Shown in pieces: positions 44,373-64,000 of a stretch of 64,000 nucleotides of DNA. Origin of the DNA: a bacterium (GTDB lineage: Bacteria > Auribacterota > UBA3054); the NCBI GenBank assembly GCA_017557885.1, contig JAFYXV010000003.1, forward strand, positions 1-64,000. Reading direction: 5' to 3'. The position numbers and the translations under genes were made by a program. The number at the start of each line of letters is the position of its first letter. The stretch's first letter is position 1. The notes beneath the pieces were generated by a model, which was not told the origin of the DNA, searched no databases, and worked only from the letters and a program-made list of their open reading frames with translations.

Positions 44373-44374
44373 AA

Positions 44375-45331: not shown

Positions 45332-45883
45332 ATGCCCCATTGGCTTGGAAAAAATCCCACGGAGGAGCAGCTGAAAACGCTCAGGTCCATCGAGGCGCTG
45401 GCTCTCGACGTTGACGGCGTTCTGACGAACGGCGGCATCATTTACGGCACCGCCGGCATGGAGATCAAACGCTTCGACTGCAAGGACGGTTTGGGTCTCA
45501 GGCTGTGGCTTAAAGCCGGGCACGAGATCGCCATTGTGACCGGGCGGGAATCCGTGGCTGTCAGCGAACGCGCCAAGGATCTCGGCTTGAAATATGTTTA
45601 CCAGGGCTGCGGAGACAAGAAGGAGAGCCTTAAGCGCTTTTCATTTGAAAGCGGCATCCCTCTCGAAAAGATCTGCGTCGTCGGGGACGACATCATCGAC
45701 ATCCCCATGATGGCAATTGCCGGGCTTCCCGTGGCCGTGGGCGACGCCTCCAGGGAAGCTCAGGAAGCCGCCCAGCTCATCGCCCTGAAGGGCGGAGGGC
45801 TTGGCGCTGTCAGGGAAGTGATAGAATATATATTGAAGGGACAAGGTCTCTGGGAAAAGGTCATTGCGCAATATTATGAATAA
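45332..45883 (+). CDS. kdsC: Kdo-8-phosphate phosphatase
   Basis: HAD phosphatase releasing Kdo from its 8-phosphate. 183 residues with the nucleophile motif ALDVDGVLTNGG, IVTGRES (second motif threonine), and the metal-binding GDDIIDIPMM. No cap domain, as in the tetrameric KdsC family. It begins on the base after the kdsD stop and overlaps lptC by 8 bases. Confidence 0.95.
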   Translation: MPHWLGKNPTEEQLKTLRSIEALALDVDGVLTNGGIIYGTAGMEIKRFDCKDGLGLRLWLKAGHEIAIVTGRESVAVSERAKDLGLKYVYQGCGDKKESLKRFSFESGIPLEKICVVGDDIIDIPMMAIAGLPVAVGDASREAQEAAQLIALKGGGLGAVREVIEYILKGQGLWEKVIAQYYE

Positions 45884-46391
45884 GCTCAAATACATTCTGC
45901 TATTGGCTCTTTTTTCACTGCCCCTTCTGGGAGCCGGAGAGAAGGGATCCTCCAAATCTGCCGTGGCGGCCACTCAGAACGTGAAATCCGGGACGAGCCG
46001 GGACGAGATGGTGGACGAAATGGAGATGCTGGAGGGCGTGACTTTGATGGAGGTCGATGAAAAGGGCAATTCCCGCTGGGTGCTGGAAGGCTCAAGCGCC
46101 AAGCAGATAGAAGGCCTGAAGATCCGCTTCTTCGACGTCATAGTGACCATGTACAGGAAAGACGGCTCCCAGGTCAAAGTCATCACCGCCCACGCCGACG
46201 TGAACCGGGAAAGCGGCGAAATAGAGACGGACGAGGTCGTGCAGATCCTGGACGGGGACAGGCTCATAAAGGGGCGCGGAATGTACGTCATTTACAACAA
46301 AGAACGCAAGGAATGCAAACTTTTCCACGACGTTGAAATAAAGGCAAAGATAGATAAGGGAAGTTTGGATATCTTTAAACAGGGGAAATGA
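45876..46391 (+). CDS. lptC: LPS export protein LptC
   Basis: 171 residues from ATG 45876; an upstream TTG is inside kdsC. An N-terminal helix (KYILLLALFSLPLLGA) anchors or exports it. The domain SRWVLEGSSAKQIEGLKIRFFDVIV is the LptC/OstA beta-jellyroll that passes LPS from LptBFG to LptA across the periplasm. In the order kdsC-lptC-lptA-lptA-lptB it matches the standard LPS export locus, with an additional lptA-like gene. Confidence 0.85.
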   Translation: MNKLKYILLLALFSLPLLGAGEKGSSKSAVAATQNVKSGTSRDEMVDEMEMLEGVTLMEVDEKGNSRWVLEGSSAKQIEGLKIRFFDVIVTMYRKDGSQVKVITAHADVNRESGEIETDEVVQILDGDRLIKGRGMYVIYNKERKECKLFHDVEIKAKIDKGSLDIFKQGK

Positions 46392-46393
46392 GT

Positions 46394-46921
46394 ATGTTGA
46401 GATTCCTGATTCTGTTGATATTGTGCGCGGCTTTTGCTTTCGCCCAGGAAAAGGGCAAGAGCGAAGTCACCATCAATTCGGACGAGCTTAAGTATTCCAT
46501 AGAGGAGAACACGGCTTATCTGCACGGGCACGTCGTCGTGACTGACGGCGAAAGAAAGCTGACCACCGACAACGCCACGGTCTATTTCGACGAAGACAAG
46601 AAAGGCGGCGACGAAGCCGTGGAAGACCTGGGCATAAAAGGCGTGGACGGCTTCAGCCGCGTGGTGGCTGTCGGCAATGTTCACGTGGTCTTCAACGACC
46701 ATCAGAACGTCAAGACGGAAGTCATAGCCGACCGCGGCATCTGGGAGAAAGCCAAGAACAAAGTCGTCATGACCGGAGGACCGCCCATCGTGCGGAGCGG
46801 CTCCCACTATATCCGCTGCCGCATGCTCACGGTCGATCTCACCAAAGCCAAATGTAATTTTGAAGCGCCTGAGATCGTTCTCACGCCTTCCAAAGAAGAG
46901 AAGGAAAAATTCCTTTTTTAA
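46394..46921 (+). CDS. lptA: LptA/OstA-like periplasmic protein 1
   Basis: 175 residues from ATG 46394, which is well spaced from an AGGGGAA site; the ATG at 46388 overlaps lptC as ATGA and is the alternative. Signal peptide MLRFLILLILCAAFAFA, then an OstA jellyroll (VTINSDELKYSIEENTAYL, HGHVVVTDGERKLTTDNATVYFD). A loop of acidic and glycine residues (KKGGDEAVEDLG) interrupts it. It should form part of the LptA bridge between LptC and the outer membrane. Confidence 0.82.
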   Translation: MLRFLILLILCAAFAFAQEKGKSEVTINSDELKYSIEENTAYLHGHVVVTDGERKLTTDNATVYFDEDKKGGDEAVEDLGIKGVDGFSRVVAVGNVHVVFNDHQNVKTEVIADRGIWEKAKNKVVMTGGPPIVRSGSHYIRCRMLTVDLTKAKCNFEAPEIVLTPSKEEKEKFLF

Positions 46922-46933
46922 AAGGAGCGTCTC

Positions 46934-47451
46934 ATGAAAAAATATTTATTCCCGACCCTTTGCCTTTTTTTCCTCGCCGCCTTTGCGCTGGCGGACGAGG
47001 ATGGCAACGGCCGCGTCCTGATCACGGCTGACAGCACCACCATGGAGACCAACGGCACCTTTGTGCTGACCGGCAACGTGAAGCTCACCTCCATGGGCGT
47101 CTTCGGCACCGCCGCCAACAAGGTCACCAACGTTTCCGTCAGGGCTGACAAAGCCATCGTTTACCAGGATCAGGACACCCACGACATTGGAAAGATAGAA
47201 GCCTACGGCAAAGTCCTCATCAGGACCTCCCAGGGTACCATCAGCGGCAGCAAGCTGGTCTATAACGCTCAGCAGGACACTTTCCGCATGACAGGGGAAC
47301 CGGTGCTGCGCGATTACAAAGGCAACGCCGCCTCCGGCTCCGCCATCACCTGGGACAACCGTCACAGGAAGCTTTCCTTGGAAGAAGGCGCCCGCATATC
47401 CTTAAACGTCAAGGGCGGAAAAATGCATCTTCCGAATATCAAGGAGGAAAA

Positions 47452-47455
<4 letters not shown>
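46934..47455 (+). CDS. LptA/OstA-like periplasmic protein 2
   Basis: 173 residues with signal peptide MKKYLFPTLCLFFLAAFALA and a second OstA-type jellyroll (VLITADSTTMETNGTFVLTGNVKL, RADKAIVYQD, KVLIRTSQGTISGSKLVYN). It is only distantly related to the preceding LptA-like gene. A strong AAAAGGAGCG site lies upstream. Two LptA-like proteins side by side could build a mixed bridge or serve different stages of LPS transport. It overlaps lptB by 4 bases. Confidence 0.82.
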
Positions 47456-48201
<746 letters not shown>

Positions 48202-48263: not shown

Positions 48264-49865
48264 ATGAATGTGATAAGGTTCAGCGATTACCGTCCCGATG
48301 TTTCCGGCACGGAAAACACGCTTCCTGTTTTTGAACAGGCTTTGCAGGAATGCCGAAAGCAAAGCGGCTGCGAATTTCTGATCGACCCTGGGACTTATCT
48401 CTTGAGGGACCGCTCGGCAGTCGAACTTTTTCAAAAAGTTCTTTCCCTTGACGACGACAGCGAGAACGCCGGCACGATCTTTAGGATGAACAGGCCTTAC
48501 GCAAAGGGGCTGGATCTGAGCAACCTTTCCGGCGTGACGGTCAGCGCCAAGGGCGTGACCTTGCTGTGCGAAGGCATCATGGAACCCGTCAGCATAATAA
48601 AAAGCAAGGATATTCTTCTGCAGGGGCTTACCATCAGGTATGTAAGGCCTCCCTTCACCCAGGGGAAAATAATCGACGTCAAGGAGGGATATTACGATGT
48701 GCTGCTCGATCCCGACACGCCTCTTGCAAAAGGCGCCTCCAACTGCCGCATCGCCTTTTGGGACGTGACCAGACAAAGGCTGGATCCAGACCAGCGCAGG
48801 CCGGAAAACAGAAATGAGATCGTAGCCCCGGGGATATTGCGCGTTCATGCCTCGGTCGATCACAAGCACGTCGGGAACATCGCCATAATCTATCATACCT
48901 TCCATTCGCGGCCGGCGATATTCATAAACGAAAGCGCCAACGTTGTCCTGAAGGACGTCACCATCCACAATCATCCCGGCATGGGAGTAGTGGGAAACAA
49001 AAGCAGAAATATCGCCATGCGGGGGCTGAGGGTAGTGCCGCTTCCCGGGAAAAAACTGGCCACCAACACGGACGCCACGCATTTCACCAACTGCCGGGGG
49101 ACGGTTGAGTTTGAAAACTGCCTCTTCTCCTGCCAGGGCGACGACGCCACCAACCTGCACAATTACTATTATCATATCGAGCGAATTCCGGAGGATCCCG
49201 CTTCCGCATATCTTAAGGTGGAAGTGACGACTCACTCCCAGCTCCAGGACAGCCCCGAGGAAGGCGACATGATGGAGATCGTGGATCTCGCCAGCATGAA
49301 CGTTATCACCGCCAAAAAGGTCTTGAAAGTCGAAAATGACATTGAAGCGCTTCGCAGCTTTGTAACTTTCGATTCTCCTCTTCCGGAATTTGAAGGCGAG
49401 ATCGCCGCGGTAAACGTCAGCGCTCTTCCTTCCCTTGTCATGCGAGGCTGCCATATCTCGACCCACCGGGCCAGGGGCGTACTGATAAAGACCAGGAACG
49501 TGCTGGTGGAAAACTGCACCGTCGAGGAAACCACGCTTTCCGCCATCCATATCGGTGTGGAAAAATATTGGGACGAGGGTCCGGGCTCGGAAAACGTGAT
49601 CATAAGGGGCAACCGCTTCGTCAGGTGCGGCTACGGCGGCTCCTGTTCGGGCGTGCTCATTAACTGCGAATGCGAGAAGCCGGAGCTGTCGAGAGTCCAC
49701 AACAACATCCTCATTGAAAACAATGTGATAGAGAACGAGACGGAGCTTCCGGACGTTATTGTTTCCGGCGCCAGGAAAGTCGTCATGAGAGGCAACGTTT
49801 TTTCCCGGCCCAAGGAGCAGGCTGTTCTTTGCAAAGATTCCGAAAGGGTCGTTTTTGAACGTTGA
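48264..49865 (+). CDS. Right-handed beta-helix protein, GH110-like
   Basis: 533 residues of parallel beta-helix repeats (VTVSAKGVTLLCEG, DILLQGLTIRYVRPPFTQGK, NVLVENCTVEETTLSAIHI). The order RPPFTQG, then NTDATHFTNCRGTVEFENCLFSCQGDDATNLH resembles GH110 alpha-1,3-galactosidases; the DD pair in QGDDATNLH fits the position of their catalytic acids. I rate this as likely, not certain. No signal peptide is seen, unusual for such enzymes. It stands alone between two strong terminators, so it is a single-gene unit. Confidence 0.65.
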   Translation: MNVIRFSDYRPDVSGTENTLPVFEQALQECRKQSGCEFLIDPGTYLLRDRSAVELFQKVLSLDDDSENAGTIFRMNRPYAKGLDLSNLSGVTVSAKGVTLLCEGIMEPVSIIKSKDILLQGLTIRYVRPPFTQGKIIDVKEGYYDVLLDPDTPLAKGASNCRIAFWDVTRQRLDPDQRRPENRNEIVAPGILRVHASVDHKHVGNIAIIYHTFHSRPAIFINESANVVLKDVTIHNHPGMGVVGNKSRNIAMRGLRVVPLPGKKLATNTDATHFTNCRGTVEFENCLFSCQGDDATNLHNYYYHIERIPEDPASAYLKVEVTTHSQLQDSPEEGDMMEIVDLASMNVITAKKVLKVENDIEALRSFVTFDSPLPEFEGEIAAVNVSALPSLVMRGCHISTHRARGVLIKTRNVLVENCTVEETTLSAIHIGVEKYWDEGPGSENVIIRGNRFVRCGYGGSCSGVLINCECEKPELSRVHNNILIENNVIENETELPDVIVSGARKVVMRGNVFSRPKEQAVLCKDSERVVFER

Positions 49866-49891: not shown

Positions 49892-49926
49892 AAGAAGCGG
49901 GAAGTTTTTTCCCGCTTCTTTTTTTT
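49892..49926 (+). terminator. Terminator after the beta-helix gene
   Basis: Stem AAGAAGCGGGAA / TTCCCGCTTCTT (12 pairs) with a short loop, followed by six more T. Confidence 0.9.
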
Positions 49927-49963: not shown

Positions 49964-49992
49964 TTGTGAAAAAACACGCAATTTGCTAAAAT
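49964..49992 (+). promoter_or_regulatory. Promoter of the metzincin operon
   Basis: TTGTGA (49964-49969), 17 bases, TAAAAT (49987-49992) with TGC before it. An imperfect inverted repeat (GTTTTTTCAAC at 49941-49951 and GTTGTGAAAAAAC at 49963-49975) overlaps the -35 and could be an operator; that is speculation. The ATG follows at 50031 behind GGGAG. Confidence 0.5.
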
Positions 49993-50030: not shown

Positions 50031-53000
50031 ATGAAAAAAACGGCCTTCTTATCCTTTCTTGTTTTGCTTTTAGCCGGTTTTTCCCTGGCTGAAACGCACA
50101 CCATTGACATTTCACCGCGTGAAGCAGAGATCAACGGCGATATCTCGGGCAATCAGGACGCGGATTTTGTCAACGAAGTGAAGGCGCTTAAGATGGGGGA
50201 CAAGCTGGTCATAAAGACCGCCTCCAACAAGGCGTTGACCGGCACGGTCTCGTACGCCTATATGGACGTCAACTTCGTGGAAGTCAGGGCAGGCTTCCTG
50301 GATGACCGCCTTGGTCACTTCCGCATGACCTGGGACGACGACGCCATGATGGGCAGAGTTTACGATTCCATGAAGCCGGAAAGCTACGATCTTTTGAAAA
50401 AATTCGGCCGGCATCCCCTGAACATCGACTGCATGGACGTCAACGCTTTCGAGGAGAAGTACCCCCTGAAGTGCGGCGTCAACGAAGGCGACGCCGAGAT
50501 ACACGCTTCCGCGGTGGATCAGAAGGACGATCCCAGGATCTGGGACGATTCAGTCATGACCACCCAGACCTTCCTGGTCATCTACACCCAGAACGCCAGT
50601 AAGAAATACGCGGAGCGCGGCGGCATCAACAACCTGATCGCGCAGGGGCTTGCGCTTGGCAACCTGAGCCTTGAAAACAGCGGCGTCCCGACGAGGCTCG
50701 TATTGGCGCACAGCGAAGCTGTCGATTACGTCAGCACCGGCAACGGCGGCACTGACCTTGGCGCTTTTGGCAACGACCGGCCGCCTTTCGACAAGGTGAA
50801 ATATCTGCAGTGCCATTACGGCGCCGACATAAGGTCAATCGTCCCGGAAAACAGCAACTACGGCGGATTAGCCTATGTGGCCTCCACGGCCTCCGGTATC
50901 TACGACCGCGATCCCGCTCACATGATCAACGTGGACTACATGAGTTGGCACAGCTGGATCCATGAGATCGGCCACAACATGGGAGGCCAGCACGCCATCG
51001 AACAATCTTACAGCGCCGGCCCTTCCAACGGCGGACTCTTCGGACACAGTGTCGGCAGTTTCTACACTCTGCACGGCGACGATTCCTTCGGCAGCATCAT
51101 GGCCTACGCCGGGCACAGGACGGACAATTTCTCCGACACCAACGCTTTCATCGAAGGCGTGCCTTTGGGCGTGGACGGAAAAAGGAACGTGGCCCGCACC
51201 TGGAAGAAGATCAGGAAATACGCCGCCAATTATCACGCCAAGCCGAAAAGTTCCAGGATACTGGCTGAAGAAAGTTTCAACTACAAGCTGGACGATTCCC
51301 TTATGTGGCAGGAAGGCGGCACCGGCTGGTTCGAGCCCTGGTGGACCTGCTCCAACAAGGTTTACCAGATATGCGGCGGACTTAACTATCCAGGGCTGCA
51401 CAGCAGCGGCAACGCCGTCCTGATGGACGCCTGGACCAGCAACGCCATCTTCCGCGCGGGCGGAGACTACGAGCGGCGCCATCCTTTCCTTAAAGGCGAG
51501 AAATCCTCTTTCTGGTTCTCCTGCCTCATAAGCCGGCAAAACAACGACGACAATTATTTCGCCATAGGCCTTGGCTCAAGGGTAAAGATCTCCAAGAATG
51601 CCGGGACGGACACGATCTACCTTAACAACGCCGTGACCGACGTGAAGCTTGAGCCATTCGCCACCAACCTCTTCCTTGTTAAATTCGACTACGCACAGAA
51701 CATAGTTTACTTCTGGCTTGATCCGAGTCTGGATACCGAACCTAGACTCGATTCGGCGGACGCTTACGTGTCCAACTATGCGACCTATGATGTTGCAAAC
51801 AGAGTGGTCATTGAAGGCAGGAAAGGCGCGAAGTTCATCGTGGATGAAATAAGGCTCGGCAAAAGCTGGGAGGACGTCCTCATCGCCCAGCATCCCCAGG
51901 ATCCGAAACTTGATGAGCGCGATAATTCTTTGCTGTTCTCCTTTGCGGCGGCAGCAGGTGAATACGGCGTTTACAGAAGCGAGACGAAAAATTTCGATGA
52001 TTTTGAATTGCTCGCCAACGTTTCCACTGAAGGCGGAAGAGTAGAGTTTGATGACGACTCGGCGGAAGCGGACAAAGTCTATTACTACATGGCGGCCCCA
52101 AGGGGCGCGACGGAACCTAGACTCTTCACCATGCCGGTCTCCGGGCTGCTTGGAAAACTCAGCCAGACCGCGGAACCAGGCGGACCCTATATGGTGGGGC
52201 AAAGCGAGACCAACTACTTCGACGCTTCCGCGTCAATTGGCTGGATGCCGGCCTTCAGGTGGCAATTGAGAGGCGTGCAGTCGCAGATGAAGACCAACAA
52301 CGCGGTCTATGCCTATACCGACACCTATACCCCGGGGACTTATGAGGTCACTTTGATCATGCGCGACGCAATGCGCCCCTACGACGGCATGGTGACGAAC
52401 TACACGACGCTTACCGTGACAAATGCTTATCCGAAACTGGACGTGAGTCTGATCAACGGAAGCCTGATGGCGGGAAGGAGCCTTACCTTCCAGGCTTTCC
52501 CCAGCGACCCCGGCACCAACGACACATTCGAAGTGCGCTGGCGCGCCGAAGGGGGAGAGGACTGGACGGAATGGACCCCGGATCTTTTCTTCGTGCATAA
52601 ATACCAGACTTCCGGCGGAAAGGAATTGAAATGCCAGGTCAGGGACAATTACGGAGCGGTGACGGAAAAGAGCTTGGATATCACTCTAGGCGAAGCCAAG
52701 GCCATCCCCAGCTTCCCAACTCTCATTACTGTTCCCATAGGCTCGGACAGAACGGCGCTGGAACTGAAGAATCTCGGGACGCTGCCTTACGATTACAGCG
52801 TCAGCGGAGTAGATGACCAGCCCTTAACGGTCTCGCCTGCAACTGGCCGTGTCGATGAGACCGGCCGCGCGCTGCTCATAAAAGTTTCCAGCGAAGCGCT
52901 TGGCAAAGCAGGGGAGTACCGTTTCACGCTTACCGCCGACGGGAAAGACGAAACAGTGAAGGTGAAGACTTTCACTTCCGGCAATTATCCCGTTCTGGCG

Positions 53001-54584
53001 CAGAGCGGCAACTTTACGCTCAACGAGGGCGACGTTCTTCACCTCAACAACTTCGGCTCCACGCCGGGCTATGCCTACAAATGGCTTGTTGACGGAATTG
53101 AAACGGCAAGCGGAAATACAGCTGACGTTATTGCAAAATCCGGAAGCGGGGAGCACGCCCTGAAACTCGAAGCCTACGACAGTGAAAACAAGCTCGTCGG
53201 CAGTTCCGACACCAATGTTTTTATCATGCCCCTTGTCTCGAGAGTTTATCTTGAGGAAGTTTCGCGCGGCGAAAAGAGCATAACATTAAGGCCCTTCCTG
53301 GCGCCTTACAAAGAAGGAACGCTCATCAGGTTCAACTGGGGCGAGGACGCTGGCTGGACCACCTGGCAAAGTCTTGCAAATGATTCTGAATTCACCCACG
53401 AGTTTAACAATAAGGATGATCACTACATCCAGTGCGAGATAAGTCAGAAAGGCGGCGTCAACGGCTCCGGCTTAATTTTCCGTCCGGAATTCTCTTTCGC
53501 TTCCAAGCCAAAAATTATAGGAAGCGAAGATAAGTCGATTATTCTTTCCGTCGGCGAAAGCGTCGAACTGCAAGGGGACGGATCTGTCAGAAATTTCTGG
53601 CGCGAGGATCCCATGAACCCGCAATTGGGCCTGATCTCCGACAATCTTGCCAGCGAAACTTCCTGCGGGCCTTTCGAGAAATCCGGCACATATTATTTCG
53701 TTTATTACGCAGGAAACGGCGATGCCATTTCTGCGCCCAAGGTCCTGACGGTCGAAGTTGGTCTTCCCGAAACGGGAAGCGTTTCCTGGGACCTCAACGG
53801 CACGGTGATCACCAACACCATGTTCGGCTCCGGTTCATTGGGAGGCTGCTCTATTGCCGTTTCCACGGGGAGCGAGATCTACTGGATCACCAACAACGCT
53901 TACGGCGCTTTCAGTTTCCCGACCTTCGAGGGCGGAAGCGGCTTAACTTTGAATATCACGCATCCCGATCATGCGCCCTGCTTCACCAACCTCAGCGAGA
54001 ATACCGGCTGCACGTTCGAACTTAAGAAGAGCGAAGCCTCAGGATATCTTTATTTCAATTGTGCTGGCGAACGTTCCAATCTTCCCTTGGCAGGCGTTAT
54101 TATAATAATCGCCGGGCAGAAAGGTGTTACGAACGCCAAGGGACGCTCCGTTGCCTTCGCGCTGCCCTGCGGCGAATATCTTGCCGAACTTAATTATCCC
54201 GGCATGGACCGCGTCATCACGAACGTTACGGTAAGTTCGAAACCCGCCACTTACAATATCGCGATGAAAGGAAAGCAGTTCACTCTTTCCGGCATGGCTT
54301 ACGGCACTGGATTGGAGATCGTGACAAACGCCCAGATCCAGGTGCTAAGTAAGGAGACCATGAACATCGCCAAACGCTGGAACCTCGACGGCGTTCCTTT
54401 CTACGACATAGGTTTGGGCGAAGCCGCAACGACGCTGCGCGTACGTCCGGTGGACTACGACAATTTAAATTTCGACATACATCTTGAAAACAACGGGCAC
54501 AAAGACGTGGTGCTGACGCCGGAACCGCTTCTTGCGTCGCTTCTCATCTTTGCTCTCGGCATCATTTATTTGAGACACGAATAA
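50031..54584 (+). CDS. Secreted metzincin metalloprotease with PEP-CTERM signal (A)
   Basis: 1517 residues. Signal peptide MKKTAFLSFLVLLLAGFSLA. An N-terminal prodomain-like region (about 30-170) leads to a catalytic domain with the metzincin zinc motif HEIGHNMGGQH (H311, H315, H321; E312 is the base) and Met-turn SIMAY. Then follow a laminin-G-like lectin region (about 420-620), Fn3/PKD/Ig-like beta modules (for example MVGQSETNYFDAS) and a carboxypeptidase-regulatory-like repeat. The C-terminus VLTPEPLLASLLIFALGI ending YLRHE is a PEP-CTERM sorting signal. A surface protease anchored via exosortase is the likely role; the substrate is unknown. Confidence 0.85.
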   Translation: MKKTAFLSFLVLLLAGFSLAETHTIDISPREAEINGDISGNQDADFVNEVKALKMGDKLVIKTASNKALTGTVSYAYMDVNFVEVRAGFLDDRLGHFRMTWDDDAMMGRVYDSMKPESYDLLKKFGRHPLNIDCMDVNAFEEKYPLKCGVNEGDAEIHASAVDQKDDPRIWDDSVMTTQTFLVIYTQNASKKYAERGGINNLIAQGLALGNLSLENSGVPTRLVLAHSEAVDYVSTGNGGTDLGAFGNDRPPFDKVKYLQCHYGADIRSIVPENSNYGGLAYVASTASGIYDRDPAHMINVDYMSWHSWIHEIGHNMGGQHAIEQSYSAGPSNGGLFGHSVGSFYTLHGDDSFGSIMAYAGHRTDNFSDTNAFIEGVPLGVDGKRNVARTWKKIRKYAANYHAKPKSSRILAEESFNYKLDDSLMWQEGGTGWFEPWWTCSNKVYQICGGLNYPGLHSSGNAVLMDAWTSNAIFRAGGDYERRHPFLKGEKSSFWFSCLISRQNNDDNYFAIGLGSRVKISKNAGTDTIYLNNAVTDVKLEPFATNLFLVKFDYAQNIVYFWLDPSLDTEPRLDSADAYVSNYATYDVANRVVIEGRKGAKFIVDEIRLGKSWEDVLIAQHPQDPKLDERDNSLLFSFAAAAGEYGVYRSETKNFDDFELLANVSTEGGRVEFDDDSAEADKVYYYMAAPRGATEPRLFTMPVSGLLGKLSQTAEPGGPYMVGQSETNYFDASASIGWMPAFRWQLRGVQSQMKTNNAVYAYTDTYTPGTYEVTLIMRDAMRPYDGMVTNYTTLTVTNAYPKLDVSLINGSLMAGRSLTFQAFPSDPGTNDTFEVRWRAEGGEDWTEWTPDLFFVHKYQTSGGKELKCQVRDNYGAVTEKSLDITLGEAKAIPSFPTLITVPIGSDRTALELKNLGTLPYDYSVSGVDDQPLTVSPATGRVDETGRALLIKVSSEALGKAGEYRFTLTADGKDETVKVKTFTSGNYPVLAQSGNFTLNEGDVLHLNNFGSTPGYAYKWLVDGIETASGNTADVIAKSGSGEHALKLEAYDSENKLVGSSDTNVFIMPLVSRVYLEEVSRGEKSITLRPFLAPYKEGTLIRFNWGEDAGWTTWQSLANDSEFTHEFNNKDDHYIQCEISQKGGVNGSGLIFRPEFSFASKPKIIGSEDKSIILSVGESVELQGDGSVRNFWREDPMNPQLGLISDNLASETSCGPFEKSGTYYFVYYAGNGDAISAPKVLTVEVGLPETGSVSWDLNGTVITNTMFGSGSLGGCSIAVSTGSEIYWITNNAYGAFSFPTFEGGSGLTLNITHPDHAPCFTNLSENTGCTFELKKSEASGYLYFNCAGERSNLPLAGVIIIIAGQKGVTNAKGRSVAFALPCGEYLAELNYPGMDRVITNVTVSSKPATYNIAMKGKQFTLSGMAYGTGLEIVTNAQIQVLSKETMNIAKRWNLDGVPFYDIGLGEAATTLRVRPVDYDNLNFDIHLENNGHKDVVLTPEPLLASLLIFALGIIYLRHE

Positions 54585-54594
54585 AGGAAACAAA

Positions 54595-57500
54595 ATGAAA
54601 AAACTCTTCCTGCTCTCAGTTCTTTTTATCGCTTCCTCTCTTTTAGCCACGCCGCCCAAAAAAGGCTTGCTCGTGGTGGACTTTGAGAACGCCGGCGCCT
54701 CAACCGTCATGGGCACAGACGTCACGAAACTTCAGGATGCTGATTTCCCGGAACAGGTGAGGGCCCTGAAGTACAAAGACCAGATCGTTTTCAAAACAGC
54801 CGAGGGCGTCTTCACGGGCACTGTGGGCGTGGCTTACCGCGACGTCAACATGGTGGAAGTGAGGGCCGGGTATTTTGAGCCGCGCAACAACGGTTACAGG
54901 GAGATCTTCCATTTCACCTATGACCAGGACGCGCTGGTGGGCTGGATGGAATACACCTACCTTGCCAAGGAATACAACATCCTTTACACCAAAGCCAGCG
55001 GTAAACTCACGGCCTATTGCGAGGACAGCCGAATGAAGGATTTTCGCTGCGGCAACGAGGACGGCGCGGCTCTTTCCGAACTCAGCGAGGAACAGAAATC
55101 GGAGATCCATGCCAACTTTACCGCTCCGCAGCCGACCACTTTCTACACCAACATCTGGGAAGTTCCGGAATATGTGACGCAGAATTACCTCATCTGCTAC
55201 ACCAAGGACGCCTACGAATATTCCAAAAGGAAAGGCGGCATCAACCACCTGATGGCCCACGGCATCGTCCATGGCACCTTGCTTTTAAGCAACAGCAACA
55301 TCAAGGCCTGCCTGAGGCTCGGTCACTCGCAGCTGCTTTCCGATTACCCGGACAACCACAATTCCGGCAAGAGCCTCGGCGACTTCAACGGCTACCGCAA
55401 CGGCTGCGAGGACGCCTACGACATGCGCTGCCGCTACGGCTGCGACATGGGGTCTATCGGCATCAAGCACGCCACCTACACCGGCCTCGCCAACGTCAAC
55501 TACTCCCAGACCGGCTCCGAATCCATTCCCTTCAACTGCATGGACTCCGACTTTTTGGGCGGCACCGGCTGGTGCCATGAGGACGGCCACACCATGGGCG
55601 GCCGCCACTACATCGACACCTACGCGGAAAACAACCGGAGCAGTCTTTTCGACCACAGCTTCGGCTGCCACAACACGCCTCCGGGCGCTCCCAGGGAATA
55701 CGGCTCCGTCATGGCCCGTTCCGCCGGCCTCTTCAACTACTATTCCTCCACCAACATCTACTACGACGGCGTTCCGATCAGCACCAACGCCAAGTGCCGC
55801 GTGGCGGACACCTGGACGAAGATCAGGCGCTACGCCGCCAGATACCGCTGCACTCCCGTCGTCCCCGACGTGGACGGACTTGTCTGCAACGAAGAGTTCG
55901 AATATCCGGAGGGCATGGGCTTGATGTGGCAGGAAGGCGGCGAAGGCTTCTGCACGCCTTGGGAGAACTGCAACACCAATATTTTCCAGACGGTTGCTGA
56001 CACTTTTGGGAGGGAAGGTTTCCACAGAGGCGGCGTATTGAGGATCAGAAACGACAACGCCGGCTCTGAATCGGCCAGGCGCTTTATTTTCTGGGGCCGC
56101 AACATCAACGGCGACTACCATTACAGCAGAACGAATTTCTGGCTGAAGAGCACCCTGAAGATCCAGAGCGAAAATATATTTTACATTTATCTGGGCAATT
56201 TCTATCTCCGCTTCAATGACAACAAGATCAGGGTCAACGGCGGGATCTCCGCCATTACTTATGATTATGACGTGCCCTTCAGCGTATTGGTCCATTTTGA
56301 AATGGGGGAATCTGATACTACCGTCAGCGTTTGGAAAGATTACGAAGGCATAAGCGAGCCCGATCCTTCCAGCGCCGATTTTACCGTGGATGTGAGCAAC
56401 GTCAGTTACTTCAGCAATTACCGTTATCTGACGCTTTACAGCATGAACGACTTCAAGGGCGAACTGGATGATCTGAGGATCGGCTTCACTTATGCCTCAC
56501 TGAATCCTCCGGAAAGACCCATGAATTTCCAAATCGTTCCGGGCGGCTACACCAACGACTATATCAGGATGGTCTGGCGCAACGTCACCGAGCCCGAATC
56601 CTTCGATATCCTGAGATCCACGGTCAACGATCCTGCGTCCGCTGCAAGTATCGCCACTTTAGGCGGCAGCACCGCCAGTTTCAAGGACGTCAATGTAACA
56701 CCCGGCGTCACGTATTACTACTGGCTGAAAGCCAACTACGCCGACCACGAGTTCACGACGCTTGTAAGAAAAGGCGTTGCGGGAACGCCCGTGGATACGG
56801 TGGAAGCCAACGGCGAATATACGATCGGCCAGGGACAAATTGCGCATCTCACCGCCAAGGGCACAACTGGTTTTCTGCCCATGATCCGCTGGACGGTCGG
56901 GACTTTCGACACGGTCTTCCTTACCAACCACTACGACTATGCCTTCAACGAAAGGATCATCATGACGCCGGGCGATTACCCGGTCAAGATCGAAGTGACG
57001 GAGCAGGAAGTTCAGACCGACATTCTGGAAGACACGACCGTACTTCACGTCACCAACAGTTATCCGCACGTGACTTTCGAATGTGAGACGGCGGAAAAGA
57101 TGGCCGGCAAGCAGTTGATCTTCCACGCCTATCCCACTGATCCCGGCACCAACGACATCCTTATCGTCAGATGGCGCTTCGCTCCCGAGACGGAATGGAG
57201 CCCCTGGACCAACAGCTATTACTTCGCGCACACCTTCACGGATGCGGGCAGCTTCAAAGTGGAGTGCGAAGTAAAGGATGATTACGAGGCTGTGACAAGG
57301 GAAGAAGGCACGATTGTGATCTCAGGCTCCAGCCCAGTCCCGTTCTTCCCGGCCAGACTCACCATGAGCAACGGACATTCGGCTGTTCTCGTTCTGGGCA
57401 ACAAGGGCTCCTCTCCTTACGATTATGAGATCGACACCCAGAACGACCTTCTTTCCGCCTATCCCGCCAGCGGGACCGTCAGCGGTTATTCTACCGTGCT

Positions 57501-59214
57501 TCTGACCTACGATCATGCCGCTACCGGCGGCACGTCGGGCATATACACCCTGAAGCTTAAGATCGGCGAAGAAACGCACGACATAAGAGTCAATGTTCCT
57601 TACGTTCCCTGCCAGCTTGCTTACCAGGGGCCCTTCGATCTCCTGGGAGAATATGAAACTACTTTCTCCGCCCTTGGCACACAACCGGGCTACGGTTTAC
57701 GCTGGCTCCTTGACGGCGAAGAGATCGGCGCCAAAGAAAAGAGCCTTTTGCTTGCGAGAACCCTTACTCTGGAGGAAGGCGAACACGAACTCGTAACGCA
57801 GGCTCTTAAGCCTAACGAATCAGTGGCGGCGGTCGTCACCAACACAGTTACCGCAGCCGTGATCGATCCCGAAGTCTTCCTGGAAGAAACAGGAAGAGAG
57901 GGGACGACCGTCACTTATTCTCCCAGAGCGATACTGCATGCGCCGGGAGAGGCGGAAGTCCGCTTCAACTGGGATGAGGGCGTAGGCTGGACGATCTGGC
58001 AATCTCCCGCCGAAGTGACTCATACCTTCAAAGCCGACCGCACCTACCTCGTCCAGTGCCAGATCAGGGCTTACGGCAAGGAGAACGCAACCTCCACCCG
58101 CTTCAGCCCGGAAGATCCTCTGAGCGTCAAAGCAACTTTTGAGAACGGCGAAAAAGATTATTCCGTTTCCACGGGCGCCAGCGCGACCGTAAACGCGACA
58201 AAAGTCGGGGAGTGCGACATCGTTTGGCGCGAGAATTTCTCCAATCCTCAGCTCGGCCTCATAGAAGACGCTTCCTCCGCCTCCTTCACTGTGACGCCGG
58301 AGAAGCCGGGCACCTACTGCTTCCTCTGCTACGCCCAGAACGACAAGGCCATCAGCGCGCCAGCTGTTCTTACCCTCAACGTAACGAAGGAAACGGAAGC
58401 CATAGACCTTTGCGGTTCCCTTGCCGGCGTAGTCGTGACCAACACCATCTACGGCTGCGACACCACGGGCGAATGCATCCTCCGCGCCGTGGGCAAAAAC
58501 TACGCGCTCTCCGTCTCCAACGAAGTGGACGGCACCTTCATTTTGGAAGGCCTGCCCTACGGACCCGTCTCGCTCTGCCTTAGTAGCGACCGCTACGCCG
58601 GTGTCGTTTACGATACCGTGATATCCAACGAGTCTCAAGTCGTAACTTTGGAAGCGGAAGATCTCACCGGCAGCGGCATAATATACGCCCAGCTGGCCGA
58701 CAACCGCTCTAAATTGCCCATAAAGGGCGCTTTTGTCACCGCAGGGTCAAAGACAGGCACCACCACCGACAAGGGCCGTTCCACGGCTCTTACGCTTCCC
58801 TACGGCGAATATGTCATGACTGTCGAGATCCCCGGCAGGGACATTGTCGTTGAGAGCGTTTCTCCGGAAGCCAGGGCCAAGACCTATGACGTCGTAAGCG
58901 AAGGATACTCGCCCTTCGTCCACGGCTTCCTCTACGGCACCGGCGGCGAGACCGTGAAAGCCGGCACCATCCAGGTGTTGTCCGACCTTACTAAGAACAT
59001 CGTTGATCGTCACAGCATGAACGGCGAGCCCTTCTATTTCATCGGCCTTACGCCCGGACACCCCGTGACGCTGCGCTACCGCCTCGACGGTTACGACAAC
59101 GAGAACTACAGCATAAATTCCGATTCTATCGTCGAGCACAACGTCGTTTTGACTCCGGAACCGGCTCTCATAGCGCTTATAGCGCTTCTTCTTGCGCTGA
59201 AATGGCGAAGATAA
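54595..59214 (+). CDS. Secreted metzincin metalloprotease with PEP-CTERM signal (B)
   Basis: 1539 residues, a paralogue of A along its length. Signal MKKLFLLSVLFIASSLLA. Prodomain with VEVRAGYFEPRNNGY, zinc motif HEDGHTMGGRH (H328, H332, H338), then the shared segment CHNTPPGAP and Met-turn SVMARS. A lectin-like region, Fn3 (PERPMNFQIVPGG), PKD-like (VEANGEYTIGQGQ) and carboxypeptidase-regulatory repeats follow. The end VLTPEPALIALIALLLALK plus WRR is a PEP-CTERM signal. It begins 10 bases after gene A, with AAAGGAAA as binding site. It is closer to the partial gene at 61730 than to A. Confidence 0.85.
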   Translation: MKKLFLLSVLFIASSLLATPPKKGLLVVDFENAGASTVMGTDVTKLQDADFPEQVRALKYKDQIVFKTAEGVFTGTVGVAYRDVNMVEVRAGYFEPRNNGYREIFHFTYDQDALVGWMEYTYLAKEYNILYTKASGKLTAYCEDSRMKDFRCGNEDGAALSELSEEQKSEIHANFTAPQPTTFYTNIWEVPEYVTQNYLICYTKDAYEYSKRKGGINHLMAHGIVHGTLLLSNSNIKACLRLGHSQLLSDYPDNHNSGKSLGDFNGYRNGCEDAYDMRCRYGCDMGSIGIKHATYTGLANVNYSQTGSESIPFNCMDSDFLGGTGWCHEDGHTMGGRHYIDTYAENNRSSLFDHSFGCHNTPPGAPREYGSVMARSAGLFNYYSSTNIYYDGVPISTNAKCRVADTWTKIRRYAARYRCTPVVPDVDGLVCNEEFEYPEGMGLMWQEGGEGFCTPWENCNTNIFQTVADTFGREGFHRGGVLRIRNDNAGSESARRFIFWGRNINGDYHYSRTNFWLKSTLKIQSENIFYIYLGNFYLRFNDNKIRVNGGISAITYDYDVPFSVLVHFEMGESDTTVSVWKDYEGISEPDPSSADFTVDVSNVSYFSNYRYLTLYSMNDFKGELDDLRIGFTYASLNPPERPMNFQIVPGGYTNDYIRMVWRNVTEPESFDILRSTVNDPASAASIATLGGSTASFKDVNVTPGVTYYYWLKANYADHEFTTLVRKGVAGTPVDTVEANGEYTIGQGQIAHLTAKGTTGFLPMIRWTVGTFDTVFLTNHYDYAFNERIIMTPGDYPVKIEVTEQEVQTDILEDTTVLHVTNSYPHVTFECETAEKMAGKQLIFHAYPTDPGTNDILIVRWRFAPETEWSPWTNSYYFAHTFTDAGSFKVECEVKDDYEAVTREEGTIVISGSSPVPFFPARLTMSNGHSAVLVLGNKGSSPYDYEIDTQNDLLSAYPASGTVSGYSTVLLTYDHAATGGTSGIYTLKLKIGEETHDIRVNVPYVPCQLAYQGPFDLLGEYETTFSALGTQPGYGLRWLLDGEEIGAKEKSLLLARTLTLEEGEHELVTQALKPNESVAAVVTNTVTAAVIDPEVFLEETGREGTTVTYSPRAILHAPGEAEVRFNWDEGVGWTIWQSPAEVTHTFKADRTYLVQCQIRAYGKENATSTRFSPEDPLSVKATFENGEKDYSVSTGASATVNATKVGECDIVWRENFSNPQLGLIEDASSASFTVTPEKPGTYCFLCYAQNDKAISAPAVLTLNVTKETEAIDLCGSLAGVVVTNTIYGCDTTGECILRAVGKNYALSVSNEVDGTFILEGLPYGPVSLCLSSDRYAGVVYDTVISNESQVVTLEAEDLTGSGIIYAQLADNRSKLPIKGAFVTAGSKTGTTTDKGRSTALTLPYGEYVMTVEIPGRDIVVESVSPEARAKTYDVVSEGYSPFVHGFLYGTGGETVKAGTIQVLSDLTKNIVDRHSMNGEPFYFIGLTPGHPVTLRYRLDGYDNENYSINSDSIVEHNVVLTPEPALIALIALLLALKWRR

Positions 59215-59248
59215 ACACACTGGCTCCAGAAATGGAAGGAGAAGATCA

Positions 59249-60535
59249 ATGAAAAAAATCATTTTAATTCTGAGCTTTTTGATGGCTCTTACGGCAGCCG
59301 CTGACAGGACGCCTATTAAACCAGTAGGAGACGGGACGGAAGTGAGTCCATATGAGATTGCTTGCTTGGAAAACTTTGTTTGGCTAAGCGAAAATCTTTC
59401 TAACTTTCAGGAAGGAACCACCGTTTATTGCAAGCAGACGCAGGACATCTTGGCTTCTGAAACCAAAGGCGAAGAGTGGCGTGAATCCGGCGGATTTCCT
59501 GTCATAATGACTGCTTATTCTGGAATTTTACATATAAAACCTTTTATTTTAAATTATGATGGGCAAGGCTTTGCCATCAAAAACCCATACATCAGAATGC
59601 CGATGGAATATGTAGAATATGTTGGCATTTTTAGATATGGGAGTTTTCAGTTGAAAAACATAGTGATTGAAGACGCTGAAGTCCAGTATTGCGGACGCCT
59701 GGGCTCTGGTATTTTGGTTGGAAATGCTCTTGGAAATTCCACTATTGATAATTGTTCTGTTAGTGGAACAATAGAATCAAAATTACCCCAAGGAGTACAT
59801 GTTGAAGGCATAGGCGGATTAATTGGACAGGTCTATGCCCAACATAACAACTCAATTTCTATTTCTCAATGCAAGGCCAGCGTTCAAGTGAGTGGACAAT
59901 CATCTATAGGAGGTTTGGTTGGACTTGTTGGAATGGAAACAAATTCGCATTTGAGCATATCGCGTTGCTATGCCGAGATTGATGCTGAATATTCTTCCGG
60001 TTTCGGTGAAGCTGGTGGCTTAATTGGGTTTTACGAGGCTGATGGCAATGCAGAATGCTCAATTGAGGACTGCTATGCGTCTTGCAATTTGGAAATGGCT
60101 TCTTCTCTCCAAGGTCGAGAGACTTTTGCAGGAGGATTTATTGGTGCTCTGTCGTTCGTACCGCATCTTTCAAGCACGAATTATGTAAATGACATAAGAG
60201 TCAGTATTTCCAGATGCTATGCTACAGGAAATATTAAAGGAGATTTTAAACATACCGGTGGATTTTTAGCTTTCAAATCAGTAAAGAGCCTGACTGTTAC
60301 AAATTGCTATTTTGACACCACCACTTTCGGCCTGGATGATTCCTTTGCTATTGCGAAAACTCATGATGAATTGAAAAGCGAGGCGACCTTTGAAAACTGG
60401 GATTTTGACAATGTCTGGTATATAGAGGAAGGCGTTTCGCTGCCCGAGCTGGCTTGGGATCTTCCTGAGCCGGGCGCGCTGGTATTGGCATTCCTTGGTT
60501 TGCTTTGCTTGTATAGGAGAAGCCAACACATCTGA
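59249..60535 (+). CDS. GLUG-repeat secreted protein with PEP-CTERM signal
   Basis: 428 residues with signal peptide MKKIILILSFLMALTAAA. A repeat region (about 140-380) has GLUG-type units such as GGLIGQVYAQHNNSISISQCKA (given in part), IGGLVGLVG and AGGLIGFYE, each followed by SISRCYA-like strands, which suggests a beta-helix adhesin. The end LPEPGALVLAFLGLLCLYRR is a PEP-CTERM signal. Base composition is clearly more AT-rich than neighbours from about 59480 to 60360, suggesting acquisition by transfer. It lies within the metzincin array. Confidence 0.82.
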   Translation: MKKIILILSFLMALTAAADRTPIKPVGDGTEVSPYEIACLENFVWLSENLSNFQEGTTVYCKQTQDILASETKGEEWRESGGFPVIMTAYSGILHIKPFILNYDGQGFAIKNPYIRMPMEYVEYVGIFRYGSFQLKNIVIEDAEVQYCGRLGSGILVGNALGNSTIDNCSVSGTIESKLPQGVHVEGIGGLIGQVYAQHNNSISISQCKASVQVSGQSSIGGLVGLVGMETNSHLSISRCYAEIDAEYSSGFGEAGGLIGFYEADGNAECSIEDCYASCNLEMASSLQGRETFAGGFIGALSFVPHLSSTNYVNDIRVSISRCYATGNIKGDFKHTGGFLAFKSVKSLTVTNCYFDTTTFGLDDSFAIAKTHDELKSEATFENWDFDNVWYIEEGVSLPELAWDLPEPGALVLAFLGLLCLYRRSQHI

Positions 60536-60536
60536 T

Positions 60537-61703
60537 ATGTTTAAGAAATGCTTCTTAACATTTATTTTTCTTGCCGCCTCGCTGCTCTTCGGCAGCGAGA
60601 CTGACGGCCTCGCCACCTACGGCGAGGTGGAGGATTACTTCAAGTCGAAAGGCTCCACCAACGCTTTCTATGAAGCGATGGACGTCATGAAAGCGCGGCA
60701 TGCTTTTGATTTCTCGCCTGAGTACAAAAAGGCGGTTGCCGCGCATTTCGCCGAGATCACGAACATCAACGCCACGGTGAAGCCGAGCATGCTCTACCGC
60801 ACGCAGGCGCTGGCGGCCAAGACTTTCGGACCAAAGAAACTTTTCGCCAAGCCGGCGGATAAATTGAAGAGCAAGCTGGACAAGAAGACGAGCTGGAAGG
60901 AGACCTACGCTCCCAAGTGGCTGAGAGTCGTAAAGGACGTGGAATCTCTGCCTCTTTCTGATGGACGGCACTGTGAGATCATAAGGCAGAAGAAGGGAAA
61001 CGGCAAGGCACTGCTCTACTGTCACGGCGGCGGCATGATATTGCCGCCTATGCTGCAGCACTGGGATCTGGCCCTTTACTTCCTTCAGAAAGGGGAGAGG
61101 GATATTTGGTTCCCGGATTATCCCTTGCTGCCGGATACGGACATGTACCGTTCCACCACGACCTGCTTCGAAGCCTACAAGGAGATGCTGAAGGTTTACA
61201 AGCCGGAAGACATCGCTTTCTTCGGCGACTCCGCGGGCTGCGCGCTTTGCCTGACCGTCTGCTTTAGGGCCAGGGACAACAAATTGCCGCTGCCCAGCCG
61301 TCTCTTCCTCTTTTCCCCGGCGCACATTGATGTCAGCGAGGAAAACTGCAAAGTGGAAATGGCGATCCTGGCGCCGGACGACATCCTCATACCTTTGCAG
61401 CTCATCGACAATCTCAACGTTTTCCTGCGCCCGGGAAGCGCCGCCACGCACAACGAGTGCGACCCTTATCACGGGGATCTTGAAGGCTTCCCGCCAATGG
61501 ACATCTTCACCGGAAGCAAGGAGGTCTTCTCCTCGCATGCCACGCGTTTTTACGAACTGGCGAAGCGCAAGGGGATAGACGCCACGCTCTTCATCGGCAA
61601 AAGCGTCATGCACGCCTGGATCCTCATGCCGGTCGGCAAAGAGAGTTTGGAAGTCAGGAAAATGATAGCCGAAAAACTTAAGAATGATAAAATAGACAAA
61701 TAG
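60537..61703 (+). CDS. Secreted alpha/beta hydrolase (HSL-like esterase)
   Basis: 388 residues from ATG 60537 (MFKKCFLTFIFLAASLLFG signal), beginning 1 base after the GLUG gene stop; no close ribosome binding site, so coupling is likely. The fold signatures are the oxyanion motif HGGG (about residue 163), nucleophile GDSAG and a late HAW histidine, the pattern of hormone-sensitive-lipase-type esterases. It has no PEP-CTERM signal. Its substrate is not known. Base composition returns to that of the surrounding genes. Confidence 0.82.
   Translation: MFKKCFLTFIFLAASLLFGSETDGLATYGEVEDYFKSKGSTNAFYEAMDVMKARHAFDFSPEYKKAVAAHFAEITNINATVKPSMLYRTQALAAKTFGPKKLFAKPADKLKSKLDKKTSWKETYAPKWLRVVKDVESLPLSDGRHCEIIRQKKGNGKALLYCHGGGMILPPMLQHWDLALYFLQKGERDIWFPDYPLLPDTDMYRSTTTCFEAYKEMLKVYKPEDIAFFGDSAGCALCLTVCFRARDNKLPLPSRLFLFSPAHIDVSEENCKVEMAILAPDDILIPLQLIDNLNVFLRPGSAATHNECDPYHGDLEGFPPMDIFTGSKEVFSSHATRFYELAKRKGIDATLFIGKSVMHAWILMPVGKESLEVRKMIAEKLKNDKIDK
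61685..61693 (+). promoter_or_regulatory. Extended -10 before the third metzincin
   Basis: TGATAAAAT inside the end of the esterase gene, about 37 bases before the next ATG. It could provide a separate promoter for the third protease. No clear -35 was found. Confidence 0.35.
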
Positions 61704-61729
61704 AAAACAATCAATAAAAGGACATAAAA

Positions 61730-64000
61730 ATGAAAAAAGCACTCTGGTTCAGCTCCCTGCTGGCTGTTTTCGCCGCAATATCTTTCGCGACTCCTCCGAA
61801 GGACATTCTGACCGTTGACCTGACTTGTCAGACTCCTCCCACCATTACGGGCGGGTACGAAAGGAACATCACCAAGCTTCAGGATTCCGACCTGCCCAAA
61901 CAGATAGAAGCGCTGGAAGTGGGGGACACAATATTCTTCAATTCCCCGGACGGCGTTTTCACGGGAAAATGCACGGTGGCTTACCGCGACATCAACTTGG
62001 TGGAAGTCAGGGCCGGCTATTTCCAGCCCCGCAACAACGGCTACAACGAGATCTGGCGTTTCACTTACGACAAGGACCAGATGTTGGGGCAGGTGGACTA
62101 CACTTACCTGAACCACGAGTACGCTATTCTCTATTCCGATATGACGGGACTCATGGCGCTGGAACCGAACACCAAAAACTTCACTTGCGGCGGCTGCGAC
62201 GGTCCCATCGACGACATTATCGCCCGCGACGGCGTGCAGCAGATAATGAGCAAGGTCGAGGCCGAACAATACTACACCAACGACTGGCAGTGCGACGAGT
62301 ATGTGACGCAGAACTACATGATCGTCTATACCAAGGAAGCTATGGAAGAGGCGAAGTCCAGAGGCGGCATCAACAACGTCTTGGCCCAGGGCATCGTTCT
62401 GGGAACGCTGGTACTTAGCAACAGCCACGTGAGGTCCTGCTTCAACCTCGTGCATTCCCAGCTCGTCGATTATTACAATCCTGTCGGCGAGATCTGCAAT
62501 TCCAGTTTGGCCTTAAGCAGCCTGTGCAACTCCAGGAACGGCCTTGAACAGATCGAGCAGCTGAGAGCCCGCTACGGCGCCGACATGTGCTCCATCGCCG
62601 TTCTGATGCCGACCTACACCGGCCTTGCCTACGTCTCTGGCGGCGTCAGCGGCAGCGAGAGTTCCGCCAACAACTGCATGGACGTGAACTTCGTCAACAC
62701 CACCGGCTGGATCCACGAGGACGGCCACAACATGGGCGGCCAGCACTATGACGAGACCGGAACCAGCGGCGGCGGCCTCTTCGGCCACAGCCACGGCTGC
62801 CACAACACGCCTCCCGGGGCGCCCATGGAGTACGGTTCTATCATGGCCAGATCCAACGGCATTTTCAACTATTACAGCTCCACAAATATTTACTACGACG
62901 GCGTTCCCATCTCCACTAACCTGAAATGCCAGGTGGCCCTGACCTGGGAGAAGACGCGCCGCTATGCCGCGCGCTACCGCTCCGTTCCGTACCATGCGGC
63001 GGGAGACATGCTTTTGCATGAGAGCTTCAATTATCCTATAGGCAGCGGCTTGATGTTTGCGGAAGGAGGCTGCGGTTTCGCTTCCCCCTGGTACGCGTGT
63101 CTTTCCAACATTTTCTTCATTCAGGACAGAGACTTGGGCGACGACTCCGCCATGCACGAAGGCGGAAGCTTGAGGATCTGCAACGAAGGCAATGAAACAG
63201 CCACCACCAGGCGTTTCATCAACTGGATGAAATATAGTCCCGCCTCCCTTACCACGCTTGCTGGGCAGGATATCTGGCTATCAGTCTGGGCCGACATGGA
63301 CGAATCGTCCGACAGTTACGGCTACGGCGGTTTCAAGCTCGGCGGTTCCTATGAATGCTTCTCTTTCTACAGGGACGGCGAGGTGAACGTGTTTGACTTC
63401 GGCACCGGCTACAAGCACGAATTCGGCACCCCCGCCCACTATCTCGCTCACTGCACGATAACGACCAACGACGCGGGCTACGCCTACACTGACATCTATA
63501 TGTGGGTGAACCCGGATATGAGCAGCGAACCAGTTGAGAGCGACGCGGTCTTCCACAAATACGGTTACTCTTACTGGGGCTACAACTTCTCCAGTTTGTA
63601 TCTTTACGCTCCTCCGGGCTTCAAGGGAACCTTCGACGAATTCTGCCTGGGCTACACCTTCGACTCCGTCAAAAACAGGGCCGTGCCTTACGGCTTTGTC
63701 AGCATGAACGGCGACGACAAGATCAGACTCCGCTGGCGCAACACCACGAAAGGCAACGTCACGCTTTGGCGCAACACGGTGGAAGATCTTGCGACTGCCG
63801 AAAAACTGAGGGAAGGGGACAGCATCTTCCAGGCTTATGACGATTCCGCTGCGACTCCCGGCCAAACTTACTATTACTGGCTGACCGGCGATTTCCCGAC
63901 TCCCGAGCCCCGCAAAGCCGTCAGGGGCATCCCCGACGTCAGCGCGGAATGCAACGGCGAATACACGATCGGCCAGGGACAGCCGGCGCATCTTTCAGCC
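61730..64000 (+). CDS. Secreted metzincin metalloprotease (C), 3' end cut by window
   Basis: 757 residues are visible and the frame is open at the window end. Signal MKKALWFSSLLAVFAAISFA, prodomain with DINLVEVRAGYFQPRNNGY, zinc motif HEDGHNMGGQH (H329, H333, H339), CHNTPPGAP and Met-turn SIMARSNG, then a lectin-like region and the beginning of the PKD-like CNGEYTIGQGQ repeat. DNA and protein similarity to B is high throughout, so it arose by duplication. From its relatives, a PEP-CTERM end is expected beyond 64000. Confidence 0.85.
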   Translation, partial: MKKALWFSSLLAVFAAISFATPPKDILTVDLTCQTPPTITGGYERNITKLQDSDLPKQIEALEVGDTIFFNSPDGVFTGKCTVAYRDINLVEVRAGYFQPRNNGYNEIWRFTYDKDQMLGQVDYTYLNHEYAILYSDMTGLMALEPNTKNFTCGGCDGPIDDIIARDGVQQIMSKVEAEQYYTNDWQCDEYVTQNYMIVYTKEAMEEAKSRGGINNVLAQGIVLGTLVLSNSHVRSCFNLVHSQLVDYYNPVGEICNSSLALSSLCNSRNGLEQIEQLRARYGADMCSIAVLMPTYTGLAYVSGGVSGSESSANNCMDVNFVNTTGWIHEDGHNMGGQHYDETGTSGGGLFGHSHGCHNTPPGAPMEYGSIMARSNGIFNYYSSTNIYYDGVPISTNLKCQVALTWEKTRRYAARYRSVPYHAAGDMLLHESFNYPIGSGLMFAEGGCGFASPWYACLSNIFFIQDRDLGDDSAMHEGGSLRICNEGNETATTRRFINWMKYSPASLTTLAGQDIWLSVWADMDESSDSYGYGGFKLGGSYECFSFYRDGEVNVFDFGTGYKHEFGTPAHYLAHCTITTNDAGYAYTDIYMWVNPDMSSEPVESDAVFHKYGYSYWGYNFSSLYLYAPPGFKGTFDEFCLGYTFDSVKNRAVPYGFVSMNGDDKIRLRWRNTTKGNVTLWRNTVEDLATAEKLREGDSIFQAYDDSAATPGQTYYYWLTGDFPTPEPRKAVRGIPDVSAECNGEYTIGQGQPAHLSA

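Follow-up and report, generated by a model that had tools for sequence, protein, structure and literature searches.

The 64,000-nucleotide window described here, which covers the initial 64 kb of contig C2 in a genome of 2.24 Mb and 13 contigs, carries towards its end an array of three genes for giant putative metzincins, named A, B and C. Searching the genome with B revealed two further paralogues, D (C2:75820-80655, 1611 amino acids, aa) and E (C8:114574-119667, minus strand, 1697 aa). Judging from their sequences, A-E would be secreted, surface-anchored zinc proteases that digest proteins or glycoproteins outside the cell, a reading to which we give a probability of about 0.7. An initial annotation of the window had described three paralogues of about 1500 aa, each with an HExGHxxGxxH motif and a Met-turn, with PEP-CTERM tails on A and B, and with a GLUG-repeat PEP-CTERM protein and a secreted esterase between B and C. 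All of these were found, and the coordinates, lengths and motifs were right; C also ends in a PEP-CTERM tail, beyond the window, and the further copies expected past position 64000 correspond to D, on the same contig, and E, on another, giving a total of five. The genes of the array are:

50031-54584, + strand: metzincin A, 1517 aa, with a signal peptide, a propeptide, a predicted adamalysin-like catalytic domain, immunoglobulin (Ig)/Fn3/PKD-like modules and a PEP-CTERM tail
54595-59214, + strand: metzincin B, 1539 aa, with the same architecture as A
59249-60535, + strand: GLUG-repeat protein with a PEP-CTERM tail, 428 aa
60537-61703, + strand: putative secreted alpha/beta-hydrolase (hormone-sensitive-lipase-like esterase), 388 aa, without PEP-CTERM; its start was taken as the best ATG, at 60537
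61730-64000, + strand: metzincin C, 1550 aa, of which the first 757 aa lie inside the window (gene end at contig position 66382)

A, B and C are homologous over their entire length, with about 30% full-length identity for A-B and A-C and 41% for B-C, and each opens with a signal-peptide-like start. In E, the similarity covers the propeptide and catalytic parts, and the stalk is a different one. The HExGHxxGxxH motif is also present in D and E; in the window, the zinc sites are located as follows:

50961-50993, + strand: zinc site of A, HEIGHNMGGQH (Met-turn Met357 at about 51099)
55576-55608, + strand: zinc site of B, HEDGHTMGGRH
62714-62746, + strand: zinc site of C, HEDGHNMGGQH

The Met-turns read SIMAY in A, SVMAR in B and SIMAR in C. 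Our comparison set included 8 genomes of the genus, and 44 of the genomes in the set belong to the same phylum. The zinc motif was found in all orthologues spanning the site (35 out of 35), with every zinc ligand and the catalytic Glu kept, and the Met-turn Met was present in all A, B, D and E orthologues reaching it, as well as in C of the window genome.

The initial annotation had called the proteins reprolysin-like metzincins, and a family search with the protease domain agreed, as A, C and E scored above the cut-off of Pfam Reprolysin_5. B had no Pfam reprolysin match of its own and was assigned to the metzincins because of its homology to C. The best-scoring model was NCBIfam Mep72 (57 bits and an E-value of 1e-15 for A, 44 bits for C and 48 bits for E); none of the three reached the cut-off of this equivalog, NF052434, at 645 bits. 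Matches to the CpaA model were weak, the best being that of E (7e-6, 25 bits), followed by C (0.011), and its cut-off (NF033511, 750 bits) was not reached. The nearest characterised kin would thus be Mep72 and the O-glycoprotease CpaA, as relatives rather than as families to which A-E belong. When an AlphaFold2 model of the propeptide-catalytic part, with a predicted local distance difference test (pLDDT) score of 42, was searched with Foldseek, the top match was CpaA-CpaB (6o38), followed by many ADAMs and snake-venom metalloproteases; identity in the fold alignments to the ADAM and venom proteases was mostly about 15-19%. A sequence-profile search matched venom reprolysins alone, and weakly (E-value 0.07), and a single-sequence search of A against the PDB gave no useful match. 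The fold matches are consistent with an adamalysin-like fold without proving it, and overall A-E look like adamalysin/reprolysin-like metzincins.

All 8 genus genomes contain the protease family, which is nearly absent from the other relatives. In the tree, the proteins formed five orthologous groups, with strong support for four and weaker support for C; the duplications are therefore older than the genus. The catalytic region was the most conserved part in A, B, C and D (78-100% identical between species), stalk identity dropped to 56-73% in the more distant species pairs, and the pairwise ratio of nonsynonymous to synonymous substitution rates (dN/dS) was about 0.02-0.3, with dN well under dS. 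In E, the catalytic region was not clearly more conserved than the neighbouring parts. A family kept in eight genomes with dN far below dS makes the array no chance occurrence. Moreover, the kept catalytic residues, the constrained catalytic region and the low dN argue for active enzymes under purifying selection, and A-D are very likely active proteases. A scan of viral contigs gave no relatives, and a phage origin of the family is not supported.

A C-terminal PEP motif, followed by a hydrophobic stretch and a basic end, was observed in all five proteins, and a terminal helix was predicted in B. The tails inside the window are:

54519-54581, + strand: PEP-CTERM tail of A (PEPLLASLLIFALGIIYLRHE)
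59155-59211, + strand: PEP-CTERM tail of B (PEPALIALIALLLALKWRR)

E exceeded the cut-off of the short Pfam PEP-CTERM model in a genome scan, and this model was not reported for A or B; the scan returned 37 PEP-CTERM-like matches at E-values up to 1, with 11 of those above the curated cut-off. An exosortase, whose absence from the genome the initial annotation had named as a ground for refuting its proposal, is encoded on contig C7 as a fusion to an EpsI/DUF3485 domain. It scored 123.7 bits against PF09721 (cut-off 25.7) and 56.8 bits against TIGR04178 (cut-off 23), and its EpsI domain was recognised too. The exosortase was found in 7 out of the 8 genus genomes, the eighth genome being 83% complete.

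Other PEP-CTERM cargo was also seen. A PF12044 metallopeptidase (C9:49138-52794, about 1213 aa, HEAGHGFGLPH) bears a PEP-CTERM tail and represents a second metallopeptidase kind among the cargo; PF12044 proteins occur in 3 or 4 copies per genus genome, with the tail checked in some of them only. In C7:206001-226000, eight PEP-CTERM genes lie in a run on the same strand, including four that encode small proteins (237-250 aa) with very similar tails.

The propeptides of A, B and C each hold a Cys-Gly pair:

50472-50477, + strand: Cys148-Gly149 of A, candidate cysteine switch
55048-55053, + strand: Cys152-Gly153 of B, candidate cysteine switch
62186-62191, + strand: Cys153-Gly154 of C, candidate cysteine switch

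This pair was present in every orthologue that reaches the region (7 of 7 for A, 8 of 8 for B and 6 of 6 for C). Its distance to the zinc motif was 163 residues in six out of the seven A orthologues (169 in the seventh) and 176 residues in all eight of B and all six of C, and in six of the eight B orthologues its Cys was the sole propeptide cysteine past the signal peptide. In mirolysin, a propeptide Cys-Gly acts as a cysteine switch (PMC6949598), and the likeness suggests that A, B and C are cysteine-switch zymogens in which Cys-Gly would block the zinc. Mirolysin and myroilysin are, however, pappalysin-family and M12A metzincins, whereas A-C are M72/M12B-like, with a switch proposed from sequence. 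Among distant homologues, a Cys lay 162-170 residues upstream of the zinc motif in 5 out of 10, and Cys-Gly was found in 1 out of 10. At the propeptide position, distant bacterial reprolysin-like proteins carry either a Cys, an Asp or neither of these, and the group may therefore alternate between cysteine and aspartate switches.

Several observations weigh against reading A-E as active, latent and surface-sorted proteases. Their proteolytic activity is something that we infer from sequence. The propeptide-catalytic part is poorly modelled, which leaves its fold match suggestive only. The exosortase fell under the curated TIGR02602 cut-off, though it passed PF09721 and TIGR04178. D is without Cys-Gly in 5 out of 6 orthologues and E has Cys-Ala, so the Cys-Gly switch is not general and D and E would need another route to latency. 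Finally, in 4 out of the 6 C orthologues (G002, G003, G004 and G005) the Met-turn has Leu (SVLAR), with zinc ligands intact. This loss of Met would fit inactive adhesins built on a dead metzincin scaffold, an explanation that we consider extremely unlikely, given that no orthologue spanning the site has lost a zinc ligand or the catalytic Glu and that constraint in A-D is highest in the catalytic region.

If A-E are indeed surface proteases, a signal peptide would export each of them, and the exosortase would cut the PEP-CTERM tail and anchor the protein to the envelope. Latency would come from the N-terminal propeptide, which in A, B and C would most likely act by placing the thiol of Cys-Gly on the zinc. 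After removal of the propeptide, a catalytic head carried on a long Fn3/PKD/Ig-like stalk would cut extracellular proteins or glycoproteins, and A-E would belong to a surface set rich in proteases by which the organism feeds. The stalk consists of PKD and Fn3 modules and further Ig-like folds, and a fold search with its model (pLDDT 66) returned generic Ig/Fn3-repeat matches only. Of the fusion to lectin, Fn3 and PKD-like modules that had been proposed initially, the last two were thus recovered, and no lectin domain was found C-terminal to the catalytic domain in A, B or C.

All 8 genus genomes are metagenome-assembled genomes from ruminant forestomachs; for the relatives with a recorded source, the hosts are buffalo, goat, sheep and yak, and the sites are rumen, reticulum and omasum. 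Goblet cells are absent from the wall of the rumen, which is keratinised. In such a forestomach habitat, the mucin of saliva, glycoproteins of plant cell walls and protein of microbial or dietary origin would be likelier targets than epithelial mucus or collagen; collagen or other matrix is unlikely as the main target of a forestomach commensal, and mucin is suggested by analogy to CpaA only. A narrower form of the proposal is that A-E are O-glycoproteases stripping mucin-like glycoproteins, such as salivary mucin or plant O-glycoproteins. CpaA, whose complex with CpaB was the top fold match and whose model is weakly matched by E and C, cleaves mucins at O-glycosylation sites, beside O-glycosylated Ser/Thr, and bears Ig-like repeats (PMC7542363). 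Glycoproteases are nevertheless not distinguishable from proteases by sequence (PMC7542363), Mep72, which is also close, is not called a glycoprotease in the abstract on it (PMC4334185), and A, B and C lack a recognisable lectin domain. We therefore regard this form as possible but doubtful. A bolder version, in which exosortase-anchored, O-glycoprotein-cutting metzincins, latent by a Cys-Gly switch, would form across the genus a dedicated surface glycoprotein-degrading apparatus of an uncultured forestomach lineage, is decidedly unlikely.

Alternatively, A-E could serve in envelope or biofilm housekeeping, comparable to the role of Mep72 in Pseudomonas biofilms, and trim PEP-CTERM matrix proteins or secreted factors that the organism itself produces. 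The Mep72 model scored best for A, C and E; in the biofilm, the proteins that Mep72 processes are itself and a few secreted ones (PMC4334185), and PEP-CTERM systems are linked to exopolysaccharide (PMC1569441). Five diverged paralogues, however, point to several substrates, and next to the genes no immunity partner comparable to the BamI known for mep72 was recognised, although no targeted search was made; this role seems rather unlikely. An attack on competing rumen microbes or protozoa would also be in line with surface display and with several diverged copies, as well as with a match between the predicted C-terminal stalk and the grappling-hook protein GhpA of Aureispira. That match, however, reflects generic Ig-like repeats only, at a very low template modelling score (TM-score), and no immunity genes were recognised, again without a targeted search, so that antagonism appears very improbable. 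The digestion of extracellular proteins or glycoproteins by A-E is the reading that we retain.

Compared with known systems, A-E resemble Mep72 of Pseudomonas aeruginosa in having a secreted metzincin catalytic domain followed by accessory modules. Mep72 differs in its two carbohydrate-binding domains and type II secretion (PMC4334185), and no PEP-CTERM is described for it; A remains far from its model (57 bits versus a cut-off of 645 bits). With CpaA of Acinetobacter, an M72 glycoprotease and the top fold match, they share a metzincin domain combined with Ig-like repeats, but CpaA is type II-secreted and its structure was solved with its chaperone, A-E miss the CpaA model cut-off, and a glycan specificity like that of CpaA, with cleavage at O-glycosylated Pro-Ser/Thr, would be hypothetical in A-E. 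M12B proteases (ADAMs and snake-venom metalloproteases) are similar in the HExxHxxGxxH motif, the Met-turn, the propeptide, the fold matches and Reprolysin_5 in A, C and E, whereas A-E are bacterial and no disintegrin domain was recognised in them. As in PEP-CTERM/exosortase (EpsH) sorting, tails occur together with an exosortase-EpsI protein in the genome; the cargo here differs in including a giant protease family. Within an open-access library, no fitting report of a PEP-CTERM metalloprotease was found; just two papers there bring together PEP-CTERM, exosortase and metalloprotease, of which the one consulted does not describe protease cargo. Both M72-type metzincins and PEP-CTERM/exosortase sorting have already been described, so the term undescribed system, used initially, was too strong, and only the combination and the five-fold expansion look new.

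If the proposal is correct, the range of PEP-CTERM/exosortase sorting, known mainly for exopolysaccharide-linked proteins, extends to an entire family of large proteases, and an uncultured ruminant lineage gains a plausible means of living on protein. A cysteine switch in the A-C family would widen a latency mechanism shown in other metzincin families, and new glycoproteases would be useful tools for mucin research.

With regard to gene arrangement, the series had been called operon-like, in agreement with its short gaps and with the terminator located upstream:

49892-49920, + strand: intrinsic terminator (13-bp stem and T tract), graded strong, 3' of the beta-helix gene, which it divides from the array
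49964-49992, + strand: promoter-like site with an extended -10, between the terminator and gene A, a consensus match only

The intergenic gaps measure 10 nucleotides (nt) for A-B, 34 nt for B-GLUG, 1 nt for GLUG-esterase (with the ATG at 60537) and 26 nt for esterase-C, and purine-rich, ribosome-binding-like stretches lie 5' of B, the GLUG gene and C. A, B, the GLUG protein, the esterase and C look like a single operon starting 3' of the terminator; the gaps, the terminator and the ribosome-binding-like stretches support a single transcript without proving it. D, about 9 kb beyond C, is probably separate from this operon. The order A-B-esterase-C recurs in relatives, with the esterase again between B and C, and in those relatives in which the B-C interval was inspected, the GLUG gene was not seen there. 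In one relative, G004, a PEP-CTERM gene with CotH-kinase and lamin-tail domains, without counterpart in the window, lies between the esterase and C (L075 6046-9609), and B is broken into two open reading frames of 1104 and 431 aa (L075 10730-15376), by a frameshift or an assembly error.

Upstream of the array, window positions 43518-48201 encode KdsA, a KdsD-like protein, KdsC, two LptA/LptC-like proteins and LptB, involved in the synthesis of 3-deoxy-D-manno-oct-2-ulosonic acid (KDO) and the export of lipopolysaccharide (LPS); the organism is therefore very likely Gram-negative with LPS. A right-handed beta-helix protein is encoded directly upstream of the array, at window positions 48264-49865. 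An open reading frame at contig position 125523-127250 may be its paralogue, as the C-terminal sequences of the two resemble each other by eye.

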